Below are positions 826 to 64,000 of a stretch of DNA of 64,000 bases, in pieces. The translations under genes were made by a program, and so were the position numbers. Origin of the DNA: Onthophagus taurus (Eukaryota; Arthropoda; Insecta; Coleoptera; Scarabaeidae). Position 1 is the stretch's first letter. Each line of letters starts with the position of its first letter. The DNA is taken from contig NC_091972.1 of assembly GCF_036711975.1 (NCBI RefSeq), positions 10,111,001 through 10,175,000 of the forward strand. Direction: 5' to 3'. The notes under the pieces are model-generated. The model searched no databases. It saw only the letters and a program-made list of their open reading frames with translations, and was not told the origin of the DNA.

Positions 826-829
826 ATGA
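782..829 (+). promoter_or_regulatory. Upstream ORF overlapping the XK-related start codon
   Basis: An ATG at 782 opens a 15-codon frame whose TGA stop (827-829) overlaps the main ATG (826-828) in the arrangement ATGA. Such overlaps can couple termination on the short frame to re-initiation on the main one. It matters only if the transcript starts upstream of 782, which is not known. Confidence 0.35.
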
Positions 830-23336: not shown

Positions 23337-23545
23337 GACTGGAATTTACGTTGAAAACCAATGCAATAATAATAATAAAAGTGAGTGATTCAAGAAATTG
23401 ATTAATTTTATTCTGTTGGTGAAACTGTGAAATGACATTTGACATTTGTATTTAGATTGTATGGCCGGTAGATGGTGTTTTAACAGAAAACTACTTTTTT
23501 TTAATATTATTTTATTAAATCTAAACATTTATGGTACTAAATTTT

Positions 23546-24365
23546 CTATTCCCATTTTTTTGATACATCTTGATAATCACCATCTGGTGCATTATAACCC
23601 TCAATTGGAGGAGTTTCCACTGGTCCAATAAACCCATAGGGAATTAATTGTAAATCAGGCTAAAATTGCAAGGATATAAAATAAACTTTTAAAATATCAC
23701 TAAAACCTTACTTGTATTGCCTCTTGATACAATTCTTCCGATTCTTTTCGCAATTCATCCAAAGCTTTTTGTTGCGAATAAGCAATACGGTCTAACATTT
23801 TTAAGTCTTTCACATATTCTTGTTTTTTAAACTGCGACCATTGCTTTTCTAATAAAATTCTTTCTTCCAAAGTTTCTGCTGTTAAAGCAGGCGATTTACG
23901 ATATCTCTCTCTGTAAAAAAAAAGAAATTAAATAATTAGGAATAAACATGATTATAAATTTTAACTTTTTATGATCAATTATCACCATAGGAATCTCAAG
24001 TTCCTCAATCGGTTTTAATTGCCTCGCATTTTTTTCAAGTTTACGAATTTGTTTCTCAATTCTTTTCTTTTTACGATCATCCCTTGCTTTAATAACGGCG
24101 GGGTCAAGCCTTTTCTTCTTTTTCAAAGGTTCAGCACTAAAAATATATTGATTAAATGGTGTTGTTTTTAATTATTTTTGTATGTAGTTACCAAAGAGCT
24201 GGAGTTGTATGCAAGAAGAGTTTATTTTCTATTTTATATCGGCTTATCAGAACAGGTATTCGACTTGGTTGTTTTAAGGAAAGCCTAAATTAGATTTAAA
24301 TAATTATTACGTTAATTAAGGTGTATTCTTAATAATTACCTGGATAAAGCAGAAATTATACTCAT
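23546..24365 (-). CDS. mRpL40: Mitochondrial large ribosomal subunit protein mL40
   Basis: Five exons on the - strand: 24365-24340, 24284-24192, 24136-23966, 23910-23712, 23659-23546; 603 nt, 200 aa. mL40 is a mitochondrion-specific protein of the large mitoribosomal subunit. The N-terminus (SIISALSRLSLKQPSRIPVL...) is basic, Ser-rich and lacks acidic residues, as expected of a mitochondrial targeting sequence. The core reads AEPLKKKKRLDPAVIKARDD and IRKLEKNARQLKPIEELEIP, then ERILLEKQWSQFKKQE and GPVETPPIEGYNAPDGDY, matching the family in order. It lies between ZFYVE19 and DDX51, all on the same strand but with separate promoters inferred. Confidence 0.9.
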
Positions 24366-24674
24366 TTTTAATAAAAAAAGGAGTTTTATTGGAAAATAGA
24401 AGTTTGAGGTTAGATTTTGTTAGGTGAGCTTACGCCATCTATCGAAGACGAAACAAAACAATTTTTTTAAATCAATTTATTACAATTTCTTAATTATTAA
24501 ACTTAACAAATAATCATGTATATTAATAATTATTGAAAATAACTCGTCTATTTAATATGTAATCAAAAATTTAATTAATTGATGCTAAATCAGTTTAAAG
24601 ATTGCGCCATCTATCGCGAATAAAAAATTTTTTTTTAGGTTAGATTAAAAATAAAGCTAAAATATATTTATTAA
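24366..24674. other. Spacer between mL40 and DDX51
   Basis: About 310 bp. It holds the presumed mL40 promoter and DDX51 3' UTR. Two short CGCCATCTATCG motifs (24434, 24606) are the only repeats noted. Confidence 0.35.
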
Positions 24675-29390: not shown

Positions 29391-29468
29391 ATGGTTTACG
29401 AAAGTGATTTTTACACGACTAGAAGGCCGTACCGTGCTACACCTTCAATTTCGACTTATACCGTATCG
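29391..29468 (+). CDS. Mf: Initiator exon of the muscle gene
   Basis: 26 codons beginning MVYESDFYTTRRPY and ending STYTVS before donor GTAGGT, phase 0. The ATG follows an A-rich leader (AAAAATGG), a good insect start context. The high Tyr/Arg content matches the later cassettes. Confidence 0.7.
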
Positions 29469-38400: not shown

Positions 38401-41400
38401 TTTATATGTATTTATTCGCTAAAAGTAACGTATTAACAAAACATTATTTTACAGAAAGTTCTTTTTTATTTTTGTTAGATATTATGATATGATACACGTT
38501 ACTTTTTTTAGTAATCTATTTAAGTTTGTACTTTGTACAATATATTCGTTGTTAAAAGTAATTTTCGTTTTATTGTAGTAGATTAGAATTTCGCCGAAAT
38601 CCTTAATTCTTCCGTTTCACAGGATTTCCCATCTACTAACGTTTCCTTTATTTATACTTTTCACGAAAATTTTTAGCAATCGAATAATAGCAAACACAAG
38701 ATTTTTTTAAACAATTTATTCGTGTTTATCATTATTTTTAGTTAACTTTTAGATATTAACTCATTAAAAAATATAAACAATAATAAAAAAACTTTAAACA
38801 GAATTAAAAAGGAAACAGTTTTTTCCCAAACTAACTCATCCTTGTCTTTTTTTCTTTTCGGTGCAGTCGGTTCCATCCAGGCAAGTAAGGATCCTTCCGG
38901 GATTGGGAAAGGTAAGTAAATAACATCAAAAAACTTCATTTAAAACCGATTTGTTTACAAACTTTGATAAATTTATTTTCAAAGTTCACTAAATTTATCT
39001 CTATTTCAATTAAAGTTTGTGTGAAAGGTTATTTAAAGGTCACGGTTTTGTATGCTTCCATACATTGTGATACGGTATTCGGATCTGGGAATTTGCGCTA
39101 TTTTAAAATTAGAACGTTGAAACGATAATATTTGGGTTAGCGTTTCCGCGACTATGCAAAATTGCGAAAACTCGTTCATTTTTTATTTAATTTTACTTTC
39201 AAAATCGGAACGACAAGGTCATTTTCATAAATTTAATTCAGCGTTAATAATATGGTGGGGTGAAAAAGCTTTTTGTTTAGTAAGAAAAAAAGTTTGGATT
39301 TTATTTGGAATGATTGAGGATGATTGATCAGAATTTATTGATTAAAATAAATAAATGGAAAAATGGTGGAGGATTCAGTACTTATACTATTTTTTCAGTT
39401 AAATTACATTTCTAAAAAATTTTAGATAATAAAAATGTGTTGAGATGTCTTAATTACTTGTCTTGTAGTGATGGAACGGAAAGTGATTTTGCAAAAAGCC
39501 GGATACCGGCATATCTATCCAGCCATTATGGTTATAATTTCTGGTGCATTTCTGAAGTGATACCCTATATTGCCACATTATTGTGATATTTGAATAAAAA
39601 TGAAATTAATAAGAAACCTGATAAGATATGTCAAGTTATTTGGATCCAAGATACAAAATGATCTTTTTTTATGCTGATTTAACTAACGAAGCAACTCTAA
39701 AAAGAGCATACTCTAATTAATAATTGGCGATATTTCCACCAGGATCCATCAACAAATTAATTTTATAGCGAATTTTGAAAGTTATTGATGAAAATTGCAA
39801 CATCGAAAATTTTATCAAAACTTCAAATATTGTTTTCTCAAAAACTAAAAGTTATTTTTTAAAACGCGTTGATTCATTGGAAAGAAGACACTTTTATTAA
39901 CACTTTGGGAAATTTTCATACTCATATTCCAAGAAATGGATTTTATACAAATTTTTAAAACATAATCGGTGAAAATTGCAACATCGAAAATTTTATCAAA
40001 ACTTCAAATATTGTTTTCTCAAAAACTAAAAGTTATTTTTCAAAACAGGTTGGTTCATTGGAAAGAGGACACTTTTATTAGCACTTTGGGAAATTTTCAT
40101 ACTCATATTCCAAGAAATGGATTTTATACGAATTTTGAAACTTATCGATGAAAATTGCAACATCGAAAATTTTATCAAAACTTCAAATATTGTTTTCTCA
40201 AAAACTAAAAGTTATTTTTTAAAACGCGTTGATTCATTGGAAAGAAGACACTTTTATTAACACTTTGGGAAATTTTCATACTCATATTCCAAGAAATGGA
40301 TTTTATACGAATTTTTAAAACATAATCGGTGAAAATTGCAAAATTCGAAAAAATTGTCGATCATTTCAAAAATGTATTTCTCAAAAACTAAAAGCGATTT
40401 TTCAAAACGGCTTGTTGCATTAAAAAGAGGATGTTTTAATTAACAATTGGTGATATTTCCACAAGAATCCTTCAAGAAATTAATTTTATAGCGAATTTTG
40501 AAACTTATCGATGAAAATTGCAACATCGAAAATTTTATCAAAACTTCAAATATTGTTTTCTCAAAAACTAAAAGTTATTCTTCAAAACGTGTTGGTTCAT
40601 TGGAAAGAGGACACTTTTATTAACATTTCGGGAAATTTTCATACTCATATTCCAAGAAATCGATTTAATATGAATTTTTAAAACTTAATCGGCGAAAATT
40701 GCAATATTCGAAAAAATTGTTGATCATTTGAAAAATGTATTTCTCAAAAACGAAAAGCGATTTTTCAAAACGGCTTGTTGCATTAAAAAGAGGATACTTT
40801 AATTAATAATTGGTGATATTTCCACAAGGATCCTTCAAGAAATTAATTTTATAGCGAATTTTGAAAATTATCGATGAAAATTGCAATATCGAAAATGTTA
40901 TCAAAACTTCAAATATTGTTTTCTCAAAAACTAAAAGTTATTATTTAAAACGTGTTGGTTCATTGAAAAGAAGACACTTTTATTAACATTTCGGGAAACT
41001 TTCATACTTATAACCCAAGAAATCGATTTTATACGAATTTTTAAAACTTAATCGGCGAAAATTGCAAAATTCGAAAAAATTGTTGATAATTTCAAAAATT
41101 TATTTCTCAAAAACTAAAAGCGATTTTTCAAAACGGCTTGTTGCATTAAAAAGAGGATGTTTTAATTAACAATTGGTGATATTTCCACAAGGATCCTTCA
41201 AGAAATTAATTTTATAGCGAATTTTGAAACTTATCGATGAAAATTGCAACATCGAAAATTTTATCAAAACTTCAAATATTGTTTTCTCAAAAACTAAAAG
41301 TTATTCTTCAAAACGTGTTGGTTCATTGGAAAGAGGACACTTTTATTAACATTTCGGGAAATTTTCATATTCAGATTCCAAGAAATCGATTTTATACGAA

Positions 41401-44400
41401 TTTTTAACACTTAATCGGCGAAAATTACAGAATTCGAAAAAATTGTTCATTTCAAAAATTTATTTCTCAAGAACTAAAAGCGATTTTTCAAAACGGCTTT
41501 TTGCATTAAAAAGAGGATACTTTAATGAATAATCGAAAGTGATAACAGCTACAGTTCTGTTAGTAATGAATGTGATGATGAATTACAAGCGAAGAGAAGA
41601 AAACTAGACGAAACTGCAACAAGAGATTTTATATATCGTATTGGGATTGTTAGAATGAGGTTGCTAAAGACAAACCTGATATAAATAATGTTATATTCAA
41701 TGAAAAAAGTCCTATTGGGGTTGGTAAATATAAATATATAAAAACCTAGTAATAGGTTTTTAATATCTTAACTTTTAGTAATTATTGATCACCATTATTC
41801 TGCTTGAGACTTCAGTCTTCACTCTTCCTCAAATCTTGAGCTGAATGGTGGTGCTCGTCATAAATATTTTTTCATCATCACATCATTTTTTGATGTACTT
41901 AGCCATCTGTACAATTCTTGTCTTACTCAATCAGGATTCCCAAACTCCTGGAAGTGTGGCTATGTTACTCCCATTTTCAAAATAGCTCCAGTTAATACAT
42001 ATAAGTATCTGAGGCATATAAGAATACTAGTGTCAGTGTTACGAAATTATTGGAGAGGCTTATGGTTGAGCAGCTTTAGTCTTATTTAGAGGCGCATTGT
42101 ATATTACCACTTAAACAGTCTGGTTTTAGAAAACAATTTAGTTGTACTACTGCGCCTTTGAATTTGACTGATGATGTGTTCCAGACTTCAGATCAGGACA
42201 AGTCAACTTTTTTGATATTGCTTGATTTCACCAAGGCGTTTGATATACTTGATCACAACTTGCTATTGAAGATCTTAAAGTTTATTGGGTTGGATGTACA
42301 TGCTTTTAAACTGTTTGATAACTATCTTTCTAATAGAATTCAATCCGTTAAGTTGAATTCAGTGATATCTAGTTCTATATTTTGTTCATCAGGTGTTCCA
42401 CAAGGGTCTATTCTTGGTCCAGTTTTGGAGTTTACAAGAGTGGCAAAACGCAACTCCTGCAACAAATTTATTTCTCGTGGAGTTTCTTCTGCTATACATT
42501 TCAATATGAGATTCACAACGAATTTATGATCAAAAACTTTAAAATTTTTGTTAATGCCTAGATAAAGTGGTTGTAATTTACTTGTGTTTGCAGGAAAACG
42601 CAAAATTTTGATGCTCTTTAACTTAAAACTGTCGTTTTGAATTAAGCAATATAATCCAAAAATCAACAGTTAATCCTTTCTGCATTTGCGTCCCTTTATT
42701 TTATACCAAATTTGCAACATCGATACAATATTCTATTTCAAAGCATGAACACTAAAAAGATCCTCTTCCTTCTTAGAGAGTTTCAATTTCGAGCCAATGA
42801 TAACACTCTTTAATCCTGCAGGTTGACGACGATTGAGAATACAGAAAGAAATGTGTGGAGTAAGATAAAGGATAAGGCGGATAAAATAAATACAGTGTAT
42901 TAATTAATTATCGTACCCGTATACACGATTTGCGTATTGCAATACCAATACTGTGATATTGGTTGCATACTTGCAATGATGACGTCGGGTACGATAATTA
43001 ATTAACACACTGTAGGCAAACAATTTATGGCATTATAGATAGAGAAATGCACTTTAGAAAAAAAGTATCAAAAAGTGGAAATAAACTCGGAGTATACGAT
43101 CAACTCGTTTTAAACTCTTATTTTTGATTAATAACACTCCATTAATATTTGATCAATCATCGCAACGATTTATATAAATTCTGTTTTATCACATGGTTTT
43201 ATAAGTGATTAAAAGCGATGTAACTTTTATAATTGAGCTTTTTCGTAATTAATTAAAATGTAAACAAATAAATGTTGTATACACATTATCAATGATTTGT
43301 TTTTCATAGTGACTAAGATTTTATTCTAATAATAAAAATTTAGGTTCATGTCGTACATACGTACGATAGGATCGTGCCTTACGTGGGTCACAAGAGGCTC
43401 ACTGTAGTAACATCAAACCCAATGGTATACAAAGTCCGTCCATCAGTTCTCTACAAGGAATTCGATAGAATCGAAAACAAGTATCGCCCGTACACGTACA
43501 CCTCGGCGTTGAGCGAATATCTCAACTCAGATTCAGCGGTGGTAAGTTAAAAATTTTCCTTAAAGCATTTTCACGACAAAGAAAATCGATTTATTTTAAG
43601 TTAATTTAGTGAAAAACCAAGTTTTTTTTCTAAATCGATTTTTTTTTAATTTAAAAACATCCTTTCACGCGCTTTTAGCAATAAGAAGAGGAAATGATAT
43701 TAAAAAACCTCAGCTTTTCAGCTTTCTTATTATTATTGGTACATCTTGATTGCTTGGGTGGGGTTTTTGTTTGATTAAGAGGAACTAATTTAGAATGCGG
43801 AAATGTTTAGTTTGCTGTACGACCGGGGTTTGGAAAAGACTAAGAAAAACGGGTAAACTTCCAACTCGTTGAAAGGATCAGGGGAGGGACCTTCGCTGGA
43901 GTTCCGCCGCTAATTAACCGCTTTATTTCAATGTTACTCCGTAGTTGGCTCGTTTCAGCTGTGGCTGCTCGCTTTCCTCCTCAGGCTTTCTTGCAAGGCA
44001 TGTTCATTATTTCACCTCATTTTTTTCGCATCAAACGCCGTCTTTTACTTCTTGGCGGACGCAAGGAGCGCCCTTGGCAACACAACTATTAGCTATTTTA
44101 TAACTAGCTAAACGACGACGACGACGGTACGATGTTTTCCTGTTTAAATTAATTATCTTTTAAAAGTTAAGAATAAAATCTTAAATAAAAATTTAAAATT
44201 GATATTAGAAAACAAAATAATAAGAAAAAAAAGGCGATTGATTAATATGAAGAATTTCAATTCAAATATGAATCACCCTGTGTATTTATTTCTCATTTAA
44301 TTTGACCGTGGTTATGTAGGCTAATATAAAGCAAATCTAGGTTAAATCTGTCTAAATATATCACACCGTGAATACTGATACGCGTTCGCATTCAAATTAA

Positions 44401-50400: not shown

Positions 50401-53400
50401 GATTTAATGTATTGAAGATCATTTCTTTGAATCTTAAAATTTTGGAGTTATGATATTTTGATTGCAACCTTGCACAACTGCAATACAGGTAGTTGATAAA
50501 AAATATAATAATATAAAAATATAATATCTTAGGTTAGCTTACAAATGGAACCAAAAAAATTTAAAAGCTTTAAAAAGTTTTAAACCAAAAAACATAATCT
50601 ATGATCAATTTCTTCCGATCCATTTTCAATATAGAAAGCAAAATATTGTAATTCTTTAATCTCTAAAATTTGATATTTCAGTGTACCATTTAAAATGTCT
50701 AATTATGAATTATTTCTTTCAATTTACTTATAAGTAAATCTTTTTTGGTGTCTTTGTTTTTTTAAATCAATTTTTGAAACAATTTTGAAGACGTTAAAAA
50801 ACTTTTTATAAAAAGATTTTTGTTAAACCAAATTTAATGAAATCAATTTTTGAATTTTTGTTGTTTTTTACGTTATACGCTTTGCAATGTCTACTTACTT
50901 AAAAAAAAAAGCTTTTAATAATAATCAATCGCAAAAAAAATTCAGCAAAAGAAAAATTGTAATCATAAACTAACATGAAACTAAAATTTAAAACAAATCG
51001 AAACAATGAAAACGAGTAGATAATGGAAATTTTGGATTTCCAAGAAAAATCATGTTACTGGTCGTTATATTAGCGAGATTGTTCATTTTTACTCGCACCT
51101 GAGTGGGTCACAGGGCGCCCCAAATGACGAATTTCTCACGTTTTCATACATTTTTAGATCTTCGACGACGAAAAGAGGTTGATCAGAGCTGAGACGGCGT
51201 CTCTTTTGAGGAGAATTCATGCTCCGGTCCCTCGTGTTTCCAAACCGCTAGCACTGCCATATGTTACCAGGTAAGTTAATTTAATTATTTAAAAGTGATA
51301 TTTAATTAATAATAACATTTATCCCAACTTTGTAAGGTAAAGCTTTTTTTAAGTTTAATCTAATTTAAAACACTAAATTAAAGCTTTACATTTGAAAAGT
51401 GAATAATTTTAGTTTGATTTCTCTTTTACTGGAAGAGAAAAAGTGTTCTGTGAGCAATTATTTCCGAGATTAACCTTAATCGTGGAAAAAATTGCATTAA
51501 GCATGAAGATTTATCTTTTCCAGCACTTCCAATTTATCATGTAACTCTCCCGCTTCTAATCCTTAGTACGCTTAACCCTTTGTACCTCCTCTAACGTTAA
51601 ACAGGACTCTAATAGGCAGTATACAATCCGGAAATGTGTAATAGTAACGGAAATTCGTATTGGAAGCATATAATCCATCAACTAGTAGTTAGTGATTTGG
51701 TTTACGGTTCGGTACCCTTTGTATTGACATGAAAGATAATTCGAATTCGTATCAGTTTGAAAACAAATTTTGATGCGTCAATGTATTTTAGACAGATTAT
51801 TAACTTTAAATTTTCGAGCACTTCAGACACGTTCAAGTTGGAAATCGATTACCAAACGTCTTGAAAATTCACCCTCCTTTAAGGGGGAAATTAAGCGGAA
51901 TGTTTTCTCAGCAAACAAAAAAGAAGAAAAACTGAACGAATGAAGTAGATTGAACAATTTATTGCTTAAAAATTTGTACAATAAAATAAAGAATACTTTA
52001 CGAGGTCATTTTCTTAATACTAAATATATTAATTTAAGTCTTATAAATTTGTTTTTCGAGTTAAGTTGATTTATTTTTATCGACCAACGATTTGGGCGAC
52101 TCCAATAACACCTTGCACAACAGGTAAAGCTTCTTTGGTATGTTTAAAAACTTTTTTGACTTTCTTTTCCTTCATAAAAAAATAAATTAATTAAAGAAAT
52201 TTTTAAATAAAATGAAGTTAAATTTACTTACAATTTTTCTCCATCCTTTCCATTTTGCTTCAGTTTGACCACTCAATAAACAGAAAATGACCAAAACGAG
52301 AATAAAAACACGGTAGAAATTCATTTTGTTTTGACGTAGATTAATAAATTCTACGAAATGATAAGAAATAGTTGTATTAACGAGTAAAGTGCGACTGTTT
52401 GATGATTTTCTTTTACGAAGCTTTATATAGTAACGAGACTGAAGAGATAACGGTTGCTAAATCGTTGGAATTTCTTTGGGGAACCCCGACGTTTAATCTC
52501 TTAAAGAGGATACTGGGGAAGTACGCACGGCTACAGACGCTCCAGTATTTTTATTTTTACGTCGTGATATATCTTTTTATCAATCTTATGTGGTTTTATT
52601 TTTATAGTTTCAAGCAAATATTGAAGTTTATTGTATTCAAGTTTTTATATGTGTTTTGTTTAATGTATTTTTTTACAATACACCTTTTTTTACTACTTAA
52701 AGATCGAATTGGAATTACGATTTTCTTTGAAAATGTGTTAAAGTATGAAATGTACAGGGTGGTTCAAATTCGATGTCCGAATAGGCTAACTCGGAAACTA
52801 TAAGAGTTAGAAAAAAAGTAGCTTACATGTCATGATCTCGTTTTTCGAGAAACTGCTAATGCCGAAAACCTCATAGCGCTATCGTCTTTTGTTTTTCCCC
52901 TAAAGGCCAAAATTGAAAATATCGTAAAACCAGCAAGTGCAATTATCTTGGTTATTATTATAGGTGGAGTATTATAACTAAGACATTATATGGACACTTT
53001 TTTATAGAGAATTGGATGACGTAGTCAAAAAAATTTTTTCGGTTTTAGATTTTGAGATATCATCACAATTTTCGTTTTTTTAAATGGAAACAACCACTGA
53101 TTATTCGCTTATTAAATTCGTTATTTTTTTCTGATTACAAAAATATAGGGTTCCACAGGTCTATTTCTTATTGTTTTAGAATAAAGCCAAAAATAAACTT
53201 TTTTTTTAAATTTCCATCTAGTGTCATCGACGAAATTAAATTTACAGTTTCCTGTAAATTATGGTACTATAACTAAAAATTAAAAAAACAAATTTCTGAT
53301 GTTTGAAACAAATAAATTTGTTGAACTATTTAATTTATATATATTTTACACAAAAGTTGGAATAGATTGCATTATTTCACATTTTTTATTAATATTTAAT

Positions 53401-56400
53401 ATTATTATTAAATGACTTAATAAATTATTGATAGATGGCGCTCATATATTTTTCTTTTGAATTCAAATAAACATAGCAACATTTGTTTGTATTCAAAAAG
53501 TGTCACTTTAAAAACCTGTAATAATATTAAATATTAATAAAAAATGTGAACTAATGCAATCTATTCCAACTTTTGTGTAAAACATATATAAATTAAATAG
53601 TTCAACAAATTTATTTGTTTCAAACATCAGAAATTTGTTTTTTTAATTTTTAGTTATAGTACCATAATTTACAGGAAACTGTAAATTTAATTTCGTCGAT
53701 GACACTAGATGGAAATTTAAAAAAAAAGTTTATTTTTGGCTTTATTCTAAAACAATAAGAAATAGACCTGTGGAACCCTATATTTTTGTAATCAGAAAAA
53801 AATAACGAATTTAATAAGCGAATAATCAGTGGTTGTTTCCATTTAAAAAAACGAAAATTGTGATGATATCTCAAAATCTAAAACCGAAAAAATTTTTTTG
53901 ACTACGTCATCCAATTCTCTATAAAAAAGTGTCCATATAATGTCTTAGTTATAATACTCCACCTATAATAATAACCAAGATAATTGCACTTGCTGGTTTT
54001 ACGATATTTTCAATTTTGGCCTCTAGGGGAAAAACAAAAGACGATAGCGCTATGAGGTTTTCGGCATTAGCAGTTTCTCGAAAAACGAGATCATGACATG
54101 TAAGCTACTTTTTTTCTAACTCTTATAGTTTCCGAGTTAGCCTATTCGGACATCGAATTTGAACCACCCTGTACATCTCTAAGTCGATATTTTTGCAGCA
54201 ATATATTCATTATAAATCGAAAACTAGAAATACTAGAACCAAATATTATTAATGAGAATTGGTTATAATGAAACTTTAAAACGTTATACGCGAACATTTA
54301 TAACTCAACTATGATTATTGCCAACTTAACTGATTAACAGTCTGAAACTTTTCAAATTTGACAGATTTAACAATAACATGGTTTTATCTCAAAAATTACA
54401 AGTTGTGAATGAGTATGATATTGTTAAAATTGTGCGTAATACATCACAAAGACAATTTACAAACTATTTTTCTCCAACTATTAGGTAATTACAGTTATAA
54501 ACCGTAAAATCCGCAATTCTCGAAATTGACGGTTTTGTTTACAAATATTTATTGTAACTTGGGAACTAGAAATGCTATTAAAAAATGTTATGGATCAAAA
54601 TTGTTTGTAATAAACCAACCTAATGATATTCAAAAGCACTTATAAGCTAACTATGATTAACACCAATATAACGGATTTAAAATCCTAAGTATTACAAATT
54701 TGACAAATTTTACAAGAAAATTGTTTTTATCTCAAAAATTAAAAAGCTGAACGCGAATAATGTTAATAAATATTGTTAATAGTACGTTATAAAGACTTTA
54801 TGCATAAACGGGGTTATCAAATTTTGCGAATTTTCTTTATAAATTCGAAAATATCGAAATCCCTAAATTGACGTTTTTTTTTATAAAAATATTCGGTACA
54901 GTTAGAGAACCAATAATGCTATGAGAAAATGTTGTAGATGAAAATGATTTGTAATGAACCAACTTAATATTATTCGCAAACAATTATAACCCAACTATAA
55001 TTTTATTATTACCAGCGTAGAAGATTTAAAGCTCGAATAATTTCAAATTCGTTACATTTAACAACAATATGGGTTTTCTTTGGGTTTTGTAAAAATTGTA
55101 GATGAGGATAATGTTATTAAAAATTGTTCATAACACATCACAAAGACTTTACCCATGATCGATTTTTTTCCAACTATTCAGCATTTTTAGTTATAAACCA
55201 TAAATACCAGAAATCTGCAAATCAGCGTTTTGCTTTATATATTCATGTTTGCTCGAAAACTACAAATACTAGGAGAAAATGTTATTGACGCGAATTATTT
55301 ATAATTAACCATTAAAATATTATCAGCACTTATAACTCAACTATGATTATTGCAAACTTAGCGGATTAAAAGTCTGAAACTTTTCAAATTTGACACATTT
55401 AACAATAACATGGTTTTATCTCAAAAATTACAAGTTGTGAATGAGTATGATATTGTTAAAATTGTGTGTAATACATCACAAAGACAATTTACAAACTATT
55501 TTTCTCCAACTATTAGGTAATTACAGTTATAAACCGTAAAATCCGCAATTCTCGAAATTGACGGTTTTGTTTACAAATATTTATTGTAACTTGGGAACTA
55601 GAAATGCTATTAAAAAATGTTATGGATCAAAATTGTTTGTAATAAACCAACCTAATGATATTCAAAAGCACTTATAAGCTAACTATGATTAATACCAATA
55701 TAACGGATTTAAAATCCTAAGTATTACAAATTTGACAAATTTTACAAGAAAATTGTTTTTATCTCAAAAATTAGAAAGCTGAAAGCGAATAATGTTAATA
55801 AATATTGTTATTAGTACGTTATAAAGACTTTATGCATAAACGGGGTTATCAAATTTTGCGAATTTTGTTTATAAATTCGAAAATACCGAAATCCCTAAAT
55901 TGACGTTTTTTTTATAAAAATATTCAGTACAGTTAGAGAACCAATAATGCTATGAGAAAATGTTGTAGATGAAAATGATTTGTAATGAACCAACGTAGAA
56001 GATTTAAAGCTCGAATAATTTCAAATTAGTTACATTTAACAACAATATGGGTTTTCTTTGGGTTTGTAAAAATTGTAGATGAGGATAATGTTATTAAAAA
56101 TTGTTCATAACACATCACAAAGACTTTACCCATGATCGATTTCTTTCCAACTATTCAGCATTTTTAGTTATAAACCATAAATACCAGAAATCTGCAAATC
56201 AGCGTTTTGCTTTATATATTCATTTTTGCTCGAAGACTACAAATACTAGGAGAAAATGTTATTGACGCGAATTATTTATAATTAACCATTAAAATATTAT
56301 CAGCACTTATAACTCAACTATGATTATTGCAAACTTAGCGGATTAAAAGTCTGAAACTTTTCAAATTTGACAGATTTAACAATAACATGGTTTTATCTCA

Positions 56401-59400
56401 AAAATTACAAGTTGTGAATGAGTATGTTATTGTTAAAATTGTGCGTAATACATCACAAAGACATAATTTACAAACTATTTTTCTCCAACTATTAGGTAAT
56501 TACAGTTATAAAACGTAAAATTCACAATTCGCGAAATTGACGGTTTTGGTTACAAATATTTATTGTAACTTGGAAACTAGAAATGCTATTAAAAAATGTT
56601 ATGGATGAAAATTGTTTGTAATAAACCAACCTAATAATATTCAAAAGCACTTATAACCCAACTATGATTAATACCAATATAGCGGATTTAAAATCCTAAG
56701 TATTACAAATTTGACAAATTTGACAAGAAAATGGTTTTTATCTCAAAAATTAAAAACCTGAAAGCGAATAATGTTAATAAATATTGTTAATAGTACGTTA
56801 TAAAGACTTTATGCATAAATGGGGTTATCAAATTTTGCGAATTTTCTTTATAAATTAGAAAATACCGAAATCCCTAAATTGACGTTTTTTTTATAAAAAT
56901 ATTCAGTACAGTTAGAGAACCAAGAATGCTATGAGAAAATGTTGCAGATGAAAATTATTTGTAATGAACCAACATAATATTATTCGAAAAAACAGTTATA
57001 ACCCAACTATAATTTTATTATTACCAGCGTAGAAGATTTAAAGTTCGAATAATTTCAAATTAGTTACATTTAACAACAACATGGGTTTTCTTTGGGTTTG
57101 TAAAAATTGTAGATGAGGGTAATGTTATTAAAAATTGTTCATAACACATCACAAAGACTTTACCCATGATCGATATCTTTCCAACTATTTAGCATTTTTA
57201 GTTATAAACCATAAATACCAGAAATCTGCAAATCAGCGTTTTGCTTTATATATTCATTTTTGCTCGAAAACTACAAATACTAGGAGAAAATGTTATTGAC
57301 GCGAATTATTTATAATTAACCATTAAAAGATTATCAGCACTTATAACTCAACTATGATTATTGCAAACTTAACTGATTAAAAGTCTGAAACTTTTCAAAT
57401 TTGACAGATTTAACAATAACATGGTTTTATCTCAAAAATTACAAGTTGTGAATGAGTATGATATTGTTAAAATTGTGCGTAATACGTCACAAAGACATAA
57501 TTTACAAACTATTTTTCTCCAACTATTAGGTAATTACAATTATAAACCGTAAAATTCACAATTCGCGAAATTGACGGTTTTGGTTACAAATATTTATTGT
57601 AACTTGGAAACTAGAAATGCTATTAAAAAATGTTATGGATCAAAATTGTTTGTAATAAACCAACCTAATGATATTCAAAAGCACTTATAAGTTAACTATG
57701 ATTAATACCAATATAGCGGATTTAAAACCCTAAGTATTATAAATTTGACAAATTTTACAAGAAAATGGTTTTTATCTCAAAAATTAAAAAGCTGAACGCG
57801 AATAATGTTAATAAATATTGTTAATAGTACGTTATAAAGACTTTATGCATAAACGAGGTTATCAAATTTTGCGAATTTTCTTTATAAATTAGAAAATACC
57901 GGAATCCCTAAATTTTGGCGTTTTTTTTTATAAAAATATTCAATACAGTTAGAGAACCAAGAATGCTATGAGAAAATGTTGTAGATGAAAATGATTTGTA
58001 ATGAACCAACTTAATATTATTCGCAAACAGTTATAACCCAACTATAATTTTATTATTACCAGCGTAGAAGATTTAAAGTTCGAATAATATCAAATTAGTT
58101 ACATTTAACAACAACATGGGTTTTCTTTGGGTTTGTAAAAATTGTAGATGAGGATAATGTTATTAAAAATTGTTCATAACACATCACAAAGACTTTACCC
58201 ATGATCGATTTCTTTCCAACTATTCAGCATTTTTAGTTATAAACCATAAATACCAGAAATCTGCAAATCAGCGTTTTGCTTTATATATTCATTTTTGCTC
58301 GAACACTACAAATACTAGGAGAAAATGTTATTGACGCGAATTATTTATAATTAACCATTAAAATATTATCAGCACTTATAACTCAACTATGATTATTGCA
58401 AACTTAGCGGATTAAAAGTCTGAAACTTTTCAAATTTGACAGATTTAACAATAACATGGTTTTATCTCAAAAATTACAAGTTGTGAATGAGTATGATATT
58501 GTTAAAATTGTGCGTAATACATCAGAAAGACATAATCATCAAAGTATTTTTTCCAACTATCAGGTAATTATAGTTATAAACCGTAAAATCCACAATTCTC
58601 GAAATTGACGGTTTTGGTTACAAATATTTATTGTAACTTGGAAACTAGAAATGCTATTAAAAAATGTTATGGGTGAAAATTGTTTGTAATAAACCAACCT
58701 AATAATATTCAAAAGCACTTATAACCCAACTATGATTAATACCAATATAGCGGATTTAAAATCCTAAGTATTACAAATTTGACAAATTTGACAAGAAAAT
58801 GGTTTTTATCTCAAAAATTGAAAACCTGAAAGCGAATAATGTTAATAAATATTGTTAATAGTACGTTATAAAGACTTTATGCATAAACGGGGTTATCAAA
58901 TTTTGCGAATTTTCTTTATAAATTAGAAAATACCGAAATCCCTAAATTGACGTTTTTTTTTATAAAAATATTCAGTACAGTTAGAGAACCAAGAATGCTA
59001 TGAGAAAATGTGGTAGATGAAAATTATTTGTAATGAACCAATATAATATTATTCGAAAACTGTTATAACCCAACTATAATTTTATTATTACCAGCGTAGA
59101 AGATTTAAAGTTCGAATAATTTCATATTAGTTACATTTAACAACATGGGTTGTTCATAACACATCACAAAGGCTTAACCCATAATCAATTTCTTTCCAAC
59201 TATTCAGCATTTGTAGTTATAAACCATAACTACCACAAATCTGCAACTTTCAGACCCACTGTGCCGAACTGTTTAAGAATTACTGTTTAAAACCAATGCA
59301 AACGATTATTTTGTTGTTAAAGGTTTAAGAAAAACATAACACTGATTAGATATTGAATTTATTGGGAATTATAATAAAATAACTTTAATCAATCATGAAC

Positions 59401-60107
59401 CGAAAATTCTTTCTTTTTTTTAGGTACGATGAGTTTCCAGTAAAAACATATTCCGACAGTTACATATATAAAATGATGATGTCATCTCCAAAAGATCCAA
59501 GAGTTGTAGCGTACACTACGTATTACAGCGAACCGGTGAGAAAATATTTTGGTAAGTAAACTTTTGCTACATATTTACCACCATAAAAAATTTTTTCTTT
59601 TCAAAACTTTTTAAATTGCCAAGAAAAAAATAAATGCTAAGTCTTGGAATTCGTTTACGTTGTGAAAGAAGGGAAAAAAAAGGAAAAATAGACCGGTGGT
59701 CGTTATGAAATCAGTCGGGAACCTGAAAAGTTTTCCCAAAATTGGCCAACTTTCAACGCATGGCGGCTCGTTTACTCCAAGTTTCCTTTTTTCTCTCTTC
59801 TTCTTTTTCGTTATCTTCTATTTTAACGCGACCGTTTTGTAATAATAACTAATTTTGACCATCCATCCTTTGGCTTCTTGGAAATATGCTGATGTCCGCC
59901 AACTTTTCCGTTTAATCTTCATAAATAATGATAGAAAAAATAGTTTTCAGATAAGACAAGAAAAAAACAAATTTATTTTTCAAAGTACTTATAAAATATA
60001 ATATGATTTCTTTTATGATCCATTATTTTTATTTAAACTTTTTTTATAATATATCTAAACAATTTTTACAGGACTGCATTCTAAAACTGATCCAAATCGT
60101 CACCTCA
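29391..60107 (+). CDS. Mf: Muscle thick-filament protein gene, myofilin-like, 3' end outside the window
   Basis: A single + strand gene spread over at least 31 kb. Supported exons: 29391-29468 (start), 33348-33713 (stop), 34961-35062, 37704-38024 (stop), 38867-38911, 43344-43541, 47593-47694, 47923-48036, 48145-48264, 48526-48612, 51158-51270, 59424-59551, 60072-60107. All junctions up to 51158 are phase 0, so many combinations stay in frame; two stop-containing exons imply short isoforms. Products are basic and rich in Tyr, Pro and Arg. The start MVYESDFYTTRRPY, the short cassettes and the downstream core suggest an insect muscle structural protein such as myofilin. That name rests on general resemblance and remembered isoform complexity, not on an alignment; other sarcomeric proteins are possible. 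The exon/intron structure is much more certain than the name. Confidence 0.5.
29469..30339 (+). other. Start of the first muscle-gene intron
   Basis: AT-rich. A fragment at 29762 (after TTTTTAG, RFAYASWHTY...) could be an exon but ends quickly and resembles nothing. No other feature. Confidence 0.3.
30340..32290 (+). repeat. Satellite array 2 with 518-bp trimeric higher-order repeat
   Basis: About 11 tandem monomers; ATGCGT-type starts at 30509, 30681, 30857, 31032, 31207, 31375, 31551, 31725, 31893, 32068 and 32243 (168-176 bp apart). Variants recur every third unit: CACGAAAATTCCGAAAATATG-type text at 30857, 31375 and 31893, ATGCATAGATATCGAG at 31032 and 31551, AAATATGAAAATTTGCTCAA at 31207 and 31725. 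The period is therefore 517-519 bp. Short frames inside the array are by-products. Confidence 0.9.
32291..33347 (+). other. Intron segment before the first terminal exon
   Basis: AT-rich, with no supported gene or repeat. Confidence 0.35.
33348..33713 (+). CDS. Mf: Alternative terminal exon A of the muscle gene
   Basis: Begins after CAATTACAG and runs 121 codons to TAA at 33711-33713. It is Pro/Arg/Lys-rich: RREIPWEKVPFVPRPSLVPD at the start, then ILSPLEKARIRPKTNL, SAREQTKQRVLSMINKK and a C-terminal PYKRQLLSSSIY. GC and codon use are clearly richer than the surrounding intron. AATAAA at 33914-33919 follows. Joined to the initiator exon in phase 0 it would give a protein of about 147 aa. No named domain is recognised. 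An internal ATG at 33330 precedes the acceptor in the genomic frame and is not needed. Confidence 0.75.
   Translation, partial: RREIPWEKVPFVPRPSLVPDPVTAFGRRKPEEQQQVVRKIILSPLEKARIRPKTNLSELKPYVSAREQTKQRVLSMINKKESVPGELPGSDAMDVVLPKIHKLAEVPNLPYKRQLLSSSIY
33914..33919 (+). terminator. Poly(A) signal after terminal exon A
   Basis: AATAAA 201 bp downstream of the stop at 33713; supports 33348-33713 being a 3'-terminal exon. Confidence 0.5.
33920..34960 (+). promoter_or_regulatory. Intron segment with candidate MEF2 site and GC-richer patch
   Basis: A patch at about 34675-34830 (CGGCCCGCGTCGAGGTCCGG) is unusually GC-rich for this region. CTAAATTTAA at 34710-34719 fits YTAWWWWTAR. It lies about 240 bp before the next exon and could be an intronic enhancer or alternative promoter; no evidence of use. 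Confidence 0.3.
34961..35062 (+). CDS. Mf: Cassette exon, paralogous to the 5' part of terminal exon B
   Basis: 34 codons, phase 0 on both sides: TPTYFIVCDTPIGNQRSAEE followed by MYSYAFETSTERKE. It aligns residue by residue with the start of exon 37704-38024 (SPRYYTVRDAPDTSRRAAEQ, QYSYSYQSTSERSS), indicating a duplicated exon. Donor GTATTT is weaker than its neighbours. Confidence 0.7.
35063..36528 (+). other. Intron segment
   Basis: AT-rich with no supported coding exon or repeat array. Confidence 0.3.
36529..37170 (+). repeat. Dispersed repeat, copy 1
   Basis: From CTGCAACAAATTTATTTCTC to the AACGATTTATATAAATTCT end. A second copy lies at about 42450-43200 and contains an extra MITE, so this one supplies the empty site. 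The family is not identified; it may be a retroelement 3' end. Confidence 0.7.
37704..38024 (+). CDS. Mf: Alternative terminal exon B of the muscle gene
   Basis: 106 codons after CCAACAG, ending YRHYSYRV and TAA (38022-38024). Low-complexity Ser/Tyr/Gly/Arg-rich, with an internal repeat: TSERSSGD, SGDGPGGYSSTSERSSRSYG, then GDGPGGYHSSYSSTTAG. The 5' 34 codons are paralogous to cassette 34961-35062. Likely an extended, phosphorylatable tail; function is inferred only from composition. Confidence 0.75.
   Translation, partial: SPRYYTVRDAPDTSRRAAEQQYSYSYQSTSERSSGDPYSRPVTRSYTNTERVSRTSGDGPGGYSSTSERSSRSYGDGPGGYHSSYSSTTAGRLPGGTSYRHYSYRV
38025..38866 (+). other. 3' flank of terminal exon B and intron
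   Basis: AT-rich, with no clear canonical AATAAA close to the stop and no gene seen. Confidence 0.3.
38867..38911 (+). CDS. Mf: 15-codon microexon of the muscle gene
   Basis: Acceptor GGTGCAG, donor GTAAGT, exactly 45 nt in phase 0: SVPSRQVRILPGLGK. Basic, with no motif recognised. Strong splice sites and frame fit are the support; it needs transcript data. Confidence 0.55.
38912..39779 (+). other. Intron segment before satellite 3
   Basis: AT-rich with no recognised gene. Confidence 0.3.
39780..41530 (+). repeat. Satellite 3, about 181-bp monomers arranged as 363-bp dimers
   Basis: Monomer starts around GATGAAAATTGCAACATCG at 39785, 39965, 40145, 40328, 40509, 40692, 40870, 41054, 41236 and 41418. 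From 40145 on, type A (GCAACATCGAAAATTTTATC) alternates with type B (GCAAAATTCGAAAAAATTGT). The first three units are all type A. Recurrent TTTCTCAAAAACTAAAAG. Confidence 0.88.
41900..42430 (+). mobile_element. CR1/jockey-type reverse transcriptase relic
   Basis: Frames in order: SWKCGYVTPIFKIAPV (about 41950), a LERLMVEQL-like block, LPLKQSGFRKQFSCTTAPLN, then LILLDFTKAFDILDHNLLLK and SSGVPQGSILGPVL. These are the consecutive reverse-transcriptase blocks of CR1/jockey LINEs. The sequence stops before the YADD block, where it is fused to the dispersed repeat at about 42430. Frameshifts near 42050-42090. Confidence 0.85.
42450..43200 (+). repeat. Dispersed repeat, copy 2
   Basis: Homologous to 36529-37170 over its length, with a 120-bp insertion at 42893-43012. 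It begins immediately after the truncated reverse transcriptase. Confidence 0.7.
42893..43012. mobile_element. 120-bp MITE with TA duplication
   Basis: Ends CAGTGTATTAATTAATTATC and GATAATTAATTAACACACTG; inverted arms of about 27 bp (through GTACCCG/CGGGTAC) flanked by TA at 42891-42892 and 43013-43014. Copy 1 of the surrounding repeat lacks it, confirming insertion. Confidence 0.85.
43344..43541 (+). CDS. Mf: 66-codon cassette exon of the muscle gene
   Basis: Acceptor TTTAG, donor GTAAGT, phase 0 both sides. Reads VHVVHTYDRIVPYVGHKRLT, then NPMVYKVRPSVLYKEFDRIE and YTYTSALSEYLNSDSAV. Codon use is richer in G and C than the introns. Globular-looking but no domain recognised. Confidence 0.75.
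43542..44647 (+). promoter_or_regulatory. Intron with a GC-rich island
   Basis: About 43840-44135 is distinctly GC-rich (GGGAGGGACCTTCGCTGGAG) in an otherwise AT-rich intron, with a CAGCTG E-box at 43956-43961, the type bound by myogenic bHLH factors. No exon with splice sites was found, so an enhancer or internal promoter is possible. Confidence 0.3.
45190..45655 (+). pseudogene. piggyBac-like transposase relic, 5' part
   Basis: Frames give a WPIYDKPEDRIHRSRSDYAA block, then FFENCQKSYKVGVNVCIDDM, LLAFRDPIVGANRNIT and ADNYY. These resemble FF..C..hY.....v.vDE.LvpFRGR and TADNFYTS of piggyBac transposases, with the DE changed to DD. Frameshifted. Continues at about 46310 beyond an insertion. 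Confidence 0.65.
45657..46290 (+). mobile_element. Mariner-like element with long inverted repeats
   Basis: Left end AGGCTATTTCATTAATAATC and right end, inverted, AGGCTGTTTTATTAATAATG. The arms run about 140 bp (to the CTTCAAAGTTCCAGAAAAAA region). The interior (45868-46130) reads NGNSYLEFLQTSLFNEVEEL, RDMWFMQDALSSDRTKL, then after a frameshift WIGRGSEFSWPLRIPEF, the mariner-type MWFQQDGAP..H and WIGRG...WPxRSPD blocks. Defective. Confidence 0.75.
46310..46450 (+). pseudogene. piggyBac-like transposase relic, continuation
   Basis: Reads LIDDLRNRKLTHVGTLRKNN, matching the LL..L...GT(M/L)RKN block that follows TADNFYTS in piggyBac transposases. This shows the mariner-like element landed inside it. 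Confidence 0.65.
46490..46960 (+). repeat. Degenerate tandem repeat rich in TCTTCTATTAGCAGTAT
   Basis: Units of roughly 30-40 bp containing TAGTCTTCT and GCAGTATTTAGT variants recur about a dozen times with heavy divergence. Any open frame here is a by-product. Confidence 0.6.
47593..47694 (+). CDS. Mf: Tyrosine-rich cassette exon 1
   Basis: 34 codons, phase 0: RYPYSYIRYPYTYSYTPSYY then YTIYRPYYPTYYVN. About 45% Tyr. Acceptor TTTGCAG, donor GTAAGT. First of three neighbouring RY-initial exons. Confidence 0.72.
47923..48036 (+). CDS. Mf: Tyrosine-rich cassette exon 2
   Basis: 38 codons, phase 0: starts RYLVRRPYYYDTIYNNPYYY and ends RPRYSSLYSL. Shares RY(L), RPYYY and PRYS with its neighbours. 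Acceptor TTTACAG, donor GTAAGT. Confidence 0.72.
48145..48264 (+). CDS. Mf: Tyrosine-rich cassette exon 3
   Basis: 40 codons, phase 0: starts RYLLDRPNAIDSSLYPYFYY and ends PTYLPRYSRFFSS. Clearly paralogous to cassette 2 (RYL-DRP, PRYS). Acceptor TTTCAG, donor GTAAGT. Confidence 0.72.
48526..48612 (+). CDS. Mf: 29-codon cassette exon of the muscle gene
   Basis: Phase 0: NVAFVRHPELDVTYIYKTGP then PLREPRHAR, donor GTGAGT. Less Tyr-rich than the preceding three. Confidence 0.65.
48660..50400 (+). repeat. Satellite 4, about 169/181-bp monomers forming about 350-bp dimers
   Basis: Recurring GAATGGAGATATCATCATGA at about 48957, 49131, 49311, 49480, 49662, 49831, 50000, 50181 and 50348. Spacing often alternates 180-182 and 169 bp because a GATATGAAATATAA insertion marks every other unit (49271, 49623, 50145). 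Confidence 0.88.
50401..51157 (+). other. Intron segment
   Basis: AT-rich and satellite-edge sequence; no gene seen. Confidence 0.3.
51158..51270 (+). CDS. Mf: Core exon of the muscle gene (first phase-2 junction)
   Basis: 113 nt: IFDDEKRLIRAETASLLRRI, then HAPVPRVSKPLALPYVT, ending AG so that Arg is completed by the next exon. Donor GTAAGT. The change to phase 2 means all exons upstream join a constitutive-looking core here. Confidence 0.75.
51271..51957 (+). other. Intron segment before the nested cecropin gene
   Basis: AT-rich, no gene or repeat seen. Confidence 0.3.
51958..51963 (-). terminator. Candidate poly(A) signal of the cecropin gene
   Basis: TTTATT on the + strand (AATAAA on the - strand), 114 bp past the cecropin stop. 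Another copy at 52070-52075 lies almost on the stop. Confidence 0.4.
52077..52324 (-). CDS. Cecropin-type antimicrobial peptide precursor
   Basis: Two exons on the - strand, 52324-52232 and 52169-52077, each 93 nt, separated by a 62-bp intron (GTAAGT...GAAG); 61 aa. Cecropins are secreted cationic amphipathic helices made by fat body and haemocytes that permeabilise bacterial membranes. Residues 1-23 are a signal peptide (MNFYRVFILVLVIF, ending TEA). The mature part opens KWKGWRKIEKKVKK, the W-K-x-x-K-K-I-E-K pattern of cecropins, followed by a hinge Pro (ALPVVQG) and a hydrophobic helix VIGVAQIV. The final Gly-Arg would allow C-terminal amidation. One intron after the I-E region is typical. 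The gene lies antisense within an intron of the muscle gene. Confidence 0.88.
52359..52487 (-). promoter_or_regulatory. Cecropin promoter: TATA, GATA and kappaB motifs
   Basis: On the coding strand: TATATAAA (52429-52422), a GATA site (AGATAA on + at 52445-52450), and GGGGTTCCCC (52487-52478), which fits the insect kappaB consensus GGGRNYYYYY. A second TGATAAG (+) is at 52359-52365. kappaB plus GATA close to a TATA box is the standard layout of insect immune-inducible promoters responding to Relish/Dif. Confidence 0.7.
52755..54171. mobile_element. 1.4-kb foldback DNA element with about 655-bp arms
   Basis: Ends CAGGGTGGTTCAAATTCGAT and its exact inverse, flanked by TA (52753-52754, 54172-54173). 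The two arms are mirror images about position 53463, with a spacer of about 105 bp. Both arms contain an identical 74-codon frame that is merely mirrored and unlike any transposase. The arms are far less diverged than the copy at 6474-7191. It sits about 270 bp upstream of the cecropin kappaB site. Confidence 0.88.
54200..59230 (+). repeat. Satellite 5, about 345-bp monomers in 1.03-kb trimers
   Basis: About five copies of a higher-order unit: ACAATAACATGGTTTTATCT occurs near 54370, 55404, 56380, 57416 and 58449 (spacings about 1034, 976, 1036, 1033). Within a unit, three diverged monomers start at TTTATCTCAAAAATTACAAG, TTTATCTCAAAAATTAAAAA and TTTCTTTGGGTTTGTAAAAA. One unit (about 55985) lacks some 57 bp. 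Confidence 0.9.
59424..59551 (+). CDS. Mf: Core exon of the muscle gene
   Basis: 128 nt completing Arg and reading YDEFPVKTYSDSYIYKMMMS, SPKDPRVVAYTTYYSEPVRK, YF, then one base of Gly. Acceptor TTTTTAG, donor GTAAGT. Confidence 0.78.
59552..60071 (+). other. Intron between core exons
   Basis: About 520 bp; 59640-59780 is somewhat GC-richer than the rest. No gene seen. Confidence 0.3.
60072..60107 (+). CDS. Mf: Short core exon of the muscle gene
   Basis: 36 nt after TTTACAG, completing Gly and reading LHSKTDPNRHL, then one base before GTAAGT. The next exon is not found in the window. Confidence 0.65.
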
Positions 60108-61104: not shown

Positions 61105-64000
61105 TATTACCAAAATTAAAATCAATTATTAAAGAATGATATCTTTTTCGAATTTGTAACCACATCTATAAAAAAATGATAGAAAACAATTTTTCGTCAC
61201 ATTATTGTCACTTGAATACGACTAACGAACGCGGGAGTTGAACTAGATCAGATTCTGCGCGTGTTCGGAATTGGATAGATTGAAAATGGAATTTTTAAAA
61301 GTATCTGGACGGTTGCCAAAAAATGTTGTTGGTATTTTCATCATTGAGCTGTTGGAATTTATTCTTGAAAAGTAATTTTTGATGCTTGGGGATGAATCGG
61401 AGTCGATCGGGGGAAAATAAAACGTTTGCCTGTTTCCGGTTTACCAAAAACAGGATATTGACCCCAAGGAAAACGTATCAACGGTATACTGCTTATAGCG
61501 GAATCATCCTCGGGGACGTTCTTTTATGGGTTCCTTCCCCTCTCATCTATACGATTTCCGATGTGTATATGTCGTTTACGAGATTTCTTGTCGTTTATAA
61601 AGATTTTTAAGGAATTGTTAACGATAAAATCGATAAAAGTTTATGAAAAGGTCATTTTATTATACTCTTTTTATTTTATTATTTCATTTGGGCTTATTTT
61701 TCGATTATTATTATGAATATAAAGTTTCAATTTGTAAATAAATGAAAATTGAAATTAATATTAAATTCGAGGGTACGATTTTAAACATTTATTCGCTTGT
61801 ATAAACAGCATTTATTATTTGACTTGAAAATCGATAACCGCGATTCCAAAGTAGGTGCTGGTTGAAGCTTCAACTAAACTGGATTTCCAAGTTTTATTGA
61901 AATCCAATTCAGATTCCTACGGGATCCTCCCCTCAATAAATGGATTTGATATCGTACCCATTAAAAAAAGAAAACATTTTACACGATTTTAATTTAATAA
62001 ATTTATATGATTGTTGTGTTATTAGTATAAATAAATTATATGTGAAAGTTCGTATCATTCATTGTTGTGAATCCAGATTGTAATAAAGGTCACTACGTGG
62101 AAGCGGAATTAGCGTTGTGTATTGTTCTTGACACTATACACAACATTCAACAATCATTACAGAATTTAATCTGGAATATAATATATAATTTTAATAAAAT
62201 CAGCTTTTCCAATTATATTGCTATTGTAATTTGCACTAAAAGAATGTTTTTTTAATATTAAGTGAAAGTATTATTTAATATTAAACTCAATACTAGATTA
62301 AATTACTTTTTTTTTGTGCTTTTGATCTAAAATTTGATTTCACCCAAATTGGTGAGAATGAGGCAAAATCCTAACATTGTTCATGGTTTATCAAAACACC
62401 CAAAAGCTTAATTAGCAATTTAATACGTCACTTGCCAAAATAGTGCAAAAATAGCATTTAATTAACGTACATTAATTTCAGGATCTCAAGATCTGCCAAA
62501 GTGACTGTCACTTATAGGTATCTAAAATAGCTGAGGAAGCAAATGTGGAAGAATGTTAAAATGTAACTTGTATGAATGATCACTATAAAATACCACCTTT
62601 TTAGTATTGTAGAGAATACTGAGTTCCGTAACATCATACCTGTGGACCATTAATAAATAAAATTTCATTACAAGAGTGGTACATTTTTGAAATGAAAACA
62701 CATTGCTGAAATAAATTTTATGCAAACAATTATAGATGAATAGAATTTTTCTTTTACACAAACTTACAATTTTGCTTTTGAATAGACATTTTTTCTGATG
62801 ACCTTTCCCCGTACACGAATTGTATCCACATTTTTATTTCACAGTTTTTCATCTTTTGGTGATTATCTTGTTTATTGGATTATCCCAAGTGTCTCGCCGT
62901 CTTCCTCTCTCTCTCCTCTCCCTTATTTTCTTGCCAAACATTCTCGTTTCATCAACTGAGTCTCTTTTCTATAAAATAGATCAAAGCCTCAATATTTCAC
63001 TCTTTCCTTATGTCATCATTCCTAATTGTGTCTCTCTTCGTCACCCTCTTTTCTCTTCTCAGATATTTCACCTTTACAGCTTGCAATCTACTCTTTTCCA
63101 TTTTCGTTAGCTTTTCATTTCTTGTTATGATATCTTGCTAAATGTTAAAAATCAAAGAAGCTGTAATTTCAGCCTTAACTTTTTTAACTCCAATTTAAAT
63201 TAACCAACAAGATACAATATTGGATCCAAGAATTAAGAAATTTGGATTCTATTCAGAAAATAAGTATTCGGTGGCAAAAGAAACTCTTTGTGGCAGAGTT
63301 TGTAAAAAACATTTAATTAAGTATCTCGTCTTTATCAAGGTCCTCTTCATTGTGAGCAGATATGAAAGACCAGCTCAAACGTCGAGGGGAGGTACAAATA
63401 TAAGATTAATTGCACTTGGAATAAAAGAGACAATGATCCATAAACCTGGTAGGGGTAACGAAAAGTTTTATATCCATGATATCCTACTTTTGTTACCTCT
63501 GAACTAAGTTTTTCAAACGCCAGCTTCAAGCCCTAAGTGTTTTAAAAAAGAACGCTGCTTACTACTACCAAGCTTACTTCTCGTCTTGTTCTTTTCCGAT
63601 ATGGATATTAGTCAGTTTTTCTTTATATCAATTTTTCCTCTGGAAATGTCTATAAAGCAACTGAGGCAACGATTCGTCTCATCGACACACTGATGAATTA
63701 ATAGGGCTGAGATAGGAGTCAAGCGCACTTCGTTGCATGTGGATGGTGATATAGTGTGCTTATAATCAGTTGAATCAAATTCGAATTTACCCGTAAGACA
63801 TTTTGGAAAATTTTAGCTAGCTAGCTACTTTGCCAAACATTCTGTGATACTTGACACTGTTTTGAAAACCACTTAATCCCCGTCATTGAGACACCTAATG
63901 GTTTAACCTCTCAATTTCTATTCTATATTATTGACAGGACTCTACTTCTAAGTGTGCCAGTGCAGATATTATTGGTTTAAGGCAAATTTTAATTTCTTTC
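61105..64000 (+). other. Terminal 2.9 kb, presumed intron of the muscle gene
   Basis: Several open frames exist (for example 61386-61610, 62820-63110, 63220-63507), but none has splice-supported continuation, family resemblance or coding-like composition. A pyrimidine-rich stretch at 62880-63110 makes a hydrophobic pseudo-frame. No exon is supported. Confidence 0.35.

Follow-up and report, generated by a model that had tools for sequence, protein, structure and literature searches.

Is an antimicrobial peptide gene that sits antisense in an intron of another gene functionally tied to that gene, or is it an ordinary gene in an ordinary place? This question is raised by the stretch of DNA analysed here (64,000 nucleotides, called the window below), for which the first-pass annotation described a complete cecropin gene, apparently the only copy, nested in a large intron of a muscle gene on the other strand, with the possibility that infection-induced antisense transcription interferes with the host gene or that the muscle locus exposes the cecropin gene in muscle. 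The explanation that probably accounts best for the whole is that of an intact, ordinary beetle-type cecropin gene, one of two linked paralogues, which would be switched by infection from its own promoter and would be placed neutrally in a predicted intron. The coordinates of the features are collected in Table 1.

Table 1 Features of the cecropin gene and of the predicted host gene (positions in the window)
Feature	Positions	Strand	Remarks
Cecropin coding exon 1	52232–52324	-	23-residue signal peptide and residues 1–8 of the mature peptide
Cecropin intron	52170–52231	-	62 bases, GT-AG, phase 0; position as in the second copy
Cecropin coding exon 2	52077–52169	-	Final 30 residues of the mature peptide, Gly-Arg end, stop codon
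AATAAA polyadenylation signal	52070–52075	-	Directly after the stop; another at 51963
Initiator-like CAGTCGCA	52390–52397	-	Common to both copies
TATA box block TCGTTACTATATAAA	52422–52436	-	TATATAAA at -105
TTATC, GATA-type motif read on the other strand	52446–52450	-	At -126
KappaB-type site GGGGTTCCCC	52478–52487	-	-163 from the ATG; aligns with GGGGAATCCT of the second copy
Candidate first host coding exon (MVYESDFYTTRRPYRATPSISTYTVS)	29391–29468	+	Ends in phase 0; score 6.9, ninth in the candidate list
Candidate alternative terminal host exon	33348–33713	+	Phase-0 start, stop-bearing; weak acceptor (-2.9)
Candidate alternative terminal host exon	37704–38024	+	Phase-0 start, stop-bearing
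Predicted host exon 5' of the host intron (IFDDEKRLIRAETASLLRRIHAPVPRVSKPLALPYVT)	51158–51270	+	Score 11.3 (donor 8.8, acceptor 1.0); starts in phase 0, ends in phase 2
Predicted host intron containing the cecropin gene	51271–59423	+	
Predicted host exon 3' of the host intron (YDEFPVKTYSDSYIYKMMMSSPKDPRVVAYTTYYSEPVRKYF)	59424–59551	+	Acceptor 8.2; donor 5.1 (after 59551)
Candidate next host exon (GLHSKTDPNRHL)	60072–60107	+	Continues the frame of the preceding exon (end 59551); acceptor (-0.2) and donor (1.9) both weak

The cecropin gene is located on the minus strand and consists of two 93-base exons, with the ATG at 52324 and the stop at 52077. Its intact reading frame and its intron can be observed directly: the spliced exons encode a precursor of 61 residues (MNFYRVFILVLVIFCLLSGQTEA followed by KWKGWRKIEKKVKKVFKHTKEALPVVQGVIGVAQIVGR), and without splicing the first frame continues past the exon into intron sequence and ends after 45 residues. 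The mature peptide, KWKGWRKIEKKVKKVFKHTKEALPVVQGVIGVAQIVGR, comprises 38 residues, is cationic and amphipathic, and ends with Gly-Arg; the cleavage site after Ala-23 was placed by analogy with the oxysterlins, and the signal peptide, a hydrophobic stretch, was judged from the sequence. As far as the sequence goes, the product thus has the make-up of a cecropin-type secreted precursor, with a signal peptide of about 23 residues and a cysteine-free mature peptide of about 35–39 residues. The mean hydrophobicity of the tail (0.66) is near the oxysterlin values, and the helical moment of residues 1–21, with a helix assumed, is 0.59, a value reached in 11 of 5000 shuffles; on the same assumption, a cationic amphipathic N-terminal helix is followed by a hydrophobic C-terminal tail.

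Oxysterlins 1 and 3 are cecropins of dung beetles, with MIC values on E. coli of 6.25 and 3.12 µg/mL, respectively (PMC5706684, the source of the oxysterlin sequences, signal-peptide site and MIC values used here). The mature peptide from the window is identical to each of them at 26 of 38 positions, and the Smith-Waterman scores are 137 (oxysterlin 1) and 134 (oxysterlin 3), whereas 1000 shuffles for each gave 43 at most. The length of the signal peptide (23 residues) and of the mature peptide (38–39 residues) is alike, and so are the motifs W-R-K-x-E-K near the start, K-E-A-L-P-V in the middle and V-G-R near the end. The peptides differ in that the window peptide begins with KWKGW instead of GSKRW, carries one terminal Arg instead of two, and has a net charge of +9 as compared to +7 and +8 for the oxysterlins. 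The spliced precursor and its similarity to the oxysterlins bear out the annotation as a cecropin with an intact signal peptide and a Gly-Arg end; judged by these comparisons, the cecropin call is right and can be narrowed to the beetle (oxysterlin) type.

Nesting of this gene on the opposite strand of a host intron is likely, but it is a predicted arrangement. The antisense position in a large intron that was claimed initially agrees with plus-strand exons of compatible frame on both sides of the cecropin gene, and it stands at the level of a prediction. The exons at 51158–51270 and 59424–59551 join in frame (AG+G, giving Arg, as read by eye), a good donor (8.8) and a good acceptor (8.2) face each other, and the G+C content is 51% in the 51158 exon (computed to 51271) versus 27% in the predicted host intron. 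Together with the phase-0 end of the candidate start exon, the phase-0 starts at 33348, 37704 and 51158 fit a single gene with alternative 3' parts.

It is conceivable, although unlikely, that this gene model is wrong, in which case the two flanking exons would belong to different transcripts or be no exons at all, and the cecropin gene would be intergenic. The host exons were taken from a relaxed splice-site scan. Of the seven candidate exons that it gave in the host region, those at 37704, 51158 and 59424 are entered in Table 1, those at 38867–38911, 63360–63448 and 64922–65092 were set aside as unsettled, and the seventh is at 70059–70196. An earlier scan with stricter settings had picked up no host exon, and it recovered one exon of INTS7, which served as the control. 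The host exons are predictions, and a comparison of the joined prediction with the genome yielded three matching places, all of them its own exons. In a control on 189 kb of reversed sequence, three scores exceeded 11 (12.8, 15.1 and 11.5; minimum exon 30 rather than 24 bases). As these overlap with the scores of the 51158 exon (11.3) and of the 59424 exon (15.3 with an alternative donor after 59535), exon scores alone do not prove the host exons. The ends of the stop-bearing candidates at 33713 and 38024 would also suit separate transcripts. Nevertheless, the in-frame join, the facing splice sites and the high G+C content of the 51158 exon argue for the nested arrangement, which we retain as the likely one.

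The description of the predicted host as a muscle gene was not confirmed, and the evidence speaks neither for nor against this label. In Pfam, none of the host exon peptides tested had a match above the cut-off (the sole weak row was Pilin_GH, with 13.7 bits vs a cut-off of 28.9); the PDB and a peptide text search gave no match either, and the candidate start exon was also without a match in the text search. Myofilin was rejected as the host, all three Pfam Myofilin matches being on contig C11, and paramyosin or mini-paramyosin is not supported, with eight Myosin_tail matches on contigs C5 (five) and C1 (three) and none on C7. On the plus strand of contig C7, at 10181059–10182219, exons are found for a protein rich in Ala, Glu, Lys and Arg with a Glu-rich end, and these possibly form the 3' end of the host gene.

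The predicted intron further contains repetitive DNA. A palindrome of about 1.4 kb (52750–54179, 95.5% by self-comparison), is probably a foldback transposable element; part of each arm has a relative (87%) at 6681–7193. A tandem array with units of about 1,034 bases extends from about 54200 to 59145, with 96% matches over 55989–59145 and an internal periodicity of about 344 bases that is weaker (about 67%). A dust-filtered comparison of the predicted intron with the 189 kb (E ≤ 1e-8) showed a second cecropin gene as the sole match over 51900–52720.

This second copy, itself a direct observation, is intact and located on contig C7 at 10269648–10269408, on the same strand and about 106 kb from the window gene. 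The impression that only one copy is present thus holds for the window and not for the genome, and the argument built on a solitary gene fails. A genome search with the window precursor gave four matches, namely its own two exons and two at C7 10269411–10269648, and a search with the second-copy protein returned the same two genes plus one match with an E value of 3.3 that was taken as chance. As these protein searches score the best candidates only, the genome has at least two copies; in a tblastn search of the 189 kb no third cecropin copy was found, the remaining matches having E values of 0.17 or higher. A coding scan of the DNA between the two genes indicated Glu-rich exons near 70–71 kb, minus-strand exons near 104–112 kb that by eye resemble a seven-helix receptor, and plus-strand exons near 138–140 kb. 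Because of these other predicted exons in between, the two cecropins constitute a loose pair rather than a tandem cluster.

The second copy resembles the window gene in its exon structure, with two 93-base exons separated by a 55-base intron of the same position and phase, and in its promoter blocks. It differs in that it is placed beyond the predicted host gene and in that its mature peptide is nearly oxysterlin 1 (37 of 38 residues identical). By this similarity a beetle is the most likely source of the DNA; telomere repeats were uninformative on this point, with no (TCAGG)6 and two overlapping (TTAGG)6 matches at a single place on contig C3. The precursors of the two copies share 40 of 61 residues and the mature parts 27 of 38. 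The 61 aligned codons give a dN of 0.24 and a dS of 1.27, the latter derived from 40.8 synonymous sites and close to saturation; the resulting ratio of about 0.19 points, with a wide error, to selection that is purifying on average. On chromosome 2 of Tribolium castaneum there are likewise a few linked beetle cecropin-like genes, but there the gene closely homologous to the Acalolepta cecropin has been described as a pseudogene, and its two linked relatives carry proline- and tyrosine-rich C-terminal extensions (PMC2375007).

The blocks that the two promoters have in common are also seen directly. Upstream of the second copy, GGGGAATCCT is present at -160, GGGGTATCCC at -132, TTATC at -115 and TATAAA at -97, and the distance from TTATC to the TATA box is similar in both genes. 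Among 189 kb on both strands, the pattern TCGTTACTATA[AT]AAA occurs solely at the two cecropin genes, and CAGTCGCA occurs at three places in the 189 kb, two of which are the cecropin genes. The 10-mer GGGGTTCCCC is the only one of its kind in the same 189 kb, both strands included, whereas the loose kappaB patterns GGGRNYYYYY and GGGRNNYYYY are found 34 and 82 times, respectively. Since GGGRNYYYYY is not rare, one loose kappaB site proves little, and the arrangement common to both promoters appears to be the better evidence. Of the full immune-type promoter that had been proposed, the kappaB-type, GATA-type and TATA motifs are indeed present, but the match to GGGRNYYYYY does not by itself set the site apart. 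Rel and GATA factors act jointly on the promoters of insect antimicrobial genes. Such joint action is stated for the moricin promoter of Manduca (PMC5457402).

The retained promoter blocks also bear on the idea that the gene in the window has been silenced or is decaying and that, of the two paralogues, only the one near-identical to oxysterlin 1 is functional. The larger distance of the window peptide from oxysterlin 1 (26 vs 37 identical residues out of 38) would be in agreement with this, but the window gene has no stop or frameshift, the dN/dS value between the copies is low, and the charge and amphipathicity of its peptide are retained or raised, which together make decay improbable. The locus adds a well-preserved cecropin gene pair in an animal that is most probably a beetle, next to the three beetle species with functional cecropin genes that are named as examples in PMC6929098. 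One member being near-identical to oxysterlin 1 and the other diverged and more cationic, the pair lends itself well to a comparison of function following gene duplication.

How such a gene would operate can be envisaged as follows. From its present position inside the predicted intron of an unrelated plus-strand gene, the window gene is most likely turned on during infection by a Rel/NF-kappaB factor and a GATA factor acting on its own promoter. The precursor would be secreted and cleaved after Ala-23, its C-terminus would probably be amidated via the Gly-Arg end, and bacterial membranes may then be disrupted by the cationic amphipathic helix together with the hydrophobic tail. The intron location itself is most likely a neutral product of duplication or rearrangement.

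Embedded genes are common: about 6% of the genes of D. melanogaster are nested, frequently on the opposite strand (PMC3786989), and in two mosquitoes about 87% of the embedded genes are in introns (PMC3689595). Cecropin genes, in turn, can be clustered or dispersed (PMC6929098). Since nested genes are common and cecropin genes vary in their distribution, nothing special has to be invoked for the intron location, and the arrangement seems an ordinary one. A comparable case is 2mit, which like the window gene is a two-exon protein-coding gene on the opposite strand within an intron, in this instance of tim2 of Drosophila; its product has 1141 residues and is no immune peptide, and the nesting is reported in the honey bee too (PMC3786989). 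Among the literature matches listed, none concerned a cecropin nested in an intron, which is no claim of absence from print.

Antisense interference and exposure of the gene in muscle are possible but unsupported. A regulatory role of the cecropin gene towards its host, by which antisense transcription upon infection reduces the host transcript or alters its splicing, or transcription of the host keeps the cecropin gene silent where the host is expressed, is suggested by the opposite strands and by predicted host transcription across the entire cecropin gene. However, judged by its motifs, the cecropin unit spans a short stretch of about 0.45 kb, it lies about 0.8 kb from the closest predicted host exon and overlaps none, coupling has no measured support, and just 20–34% of nested pairs are conserved among Drosophilidae (PMC3786989), so that we regard such a role as very improbable. 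Likewise very improbable is that cecropin and host form an antisense pair conserved in beetles, with the output of the host altered when infection drives transcription of the cecropin gene. If such a pair existed, immunity would be tied to the tissue of the host gene. The position in the intron would be of importance only if it were conserved or if the cecropin gene and its host influenced each other.

That the peptide belongs to another family of linear antimicrobials, such as the moricins or stomoxyns, is hardly credible, for even though the whole precursor scores higher for Moricin (18.3 bits) than for Cecropin (15.7 bits) in Pfam, and oxysterlin 3 itself scores higher for Stomoxyn (18.6 bits) than for Cecropin (13.8 bits), the mature peptide alone has Cecropin as its top match (17.8 bits, E 0.0028), with Moricin absent, and shares the aforementioned identity with named beetle cecropins. 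A better match to a non-cecropin family, which had been put forward as grounds for rejecting the cecropin call, was thus found only as a leaning of the whole precursor below the cut-off. This Moricin score leans on the signal peptide, since the mature peptide has no Moricin match; the signal peptide alone gave 17.5 bits for Fungus-induced and 12.1 bits for Moricin.

Neither the cut-off for Cecropin (PF00272, 25 bits) nor that for Moricin (PF06451, 27.6 bits) was reached by the window peptide or precursor. Since the named oxysterlins 1 (14.6 bits) and 3 also fail the Cecropin cut-off, this Pfam model is insensitive to beetle cecropins. The second copy behaves similarly, with 13.9 bits for Cecropin in its mature part and, for its whole precursor, no Cecropin match and sub-cut-off scores for Fungus-induced (20.6 bits) and Moricin (13.6 bits). 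A search of the genome for the Cecropin family gave nothing, and 14 control genomes were all negative too. Of the published cecropin signature of 18 positions, compiled for flies, moths, mosquitoes and nematodes (quoted in PMC6929098), the window peptide has 15, a number that falls short of the signature and that 28 of 5000 shuffles attain; with 14, oxysterlins 1 and 3 fall short likewise. The best PDB match of the window peptide is the 36-residue 'K cecropin-like peptide' 2mmm (E 0.015), the sole other match being a kinase (E 1.3).

Elsewhere in the window, Pfam matches identify an XK-related gene (811–8226), Integrator subunit 7 (9164–15725), exons for an ANCHR-like B-box and a helicase (22193–26726) and a reverse-transcriptase fragment (42080–42529). 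At 20596–21608, two near-identical frames of 172 residues lie face to face on opposite strands, the plus-strand one matching GIY-YIG, and this pair is probably an inverted duplication of a mobile element.
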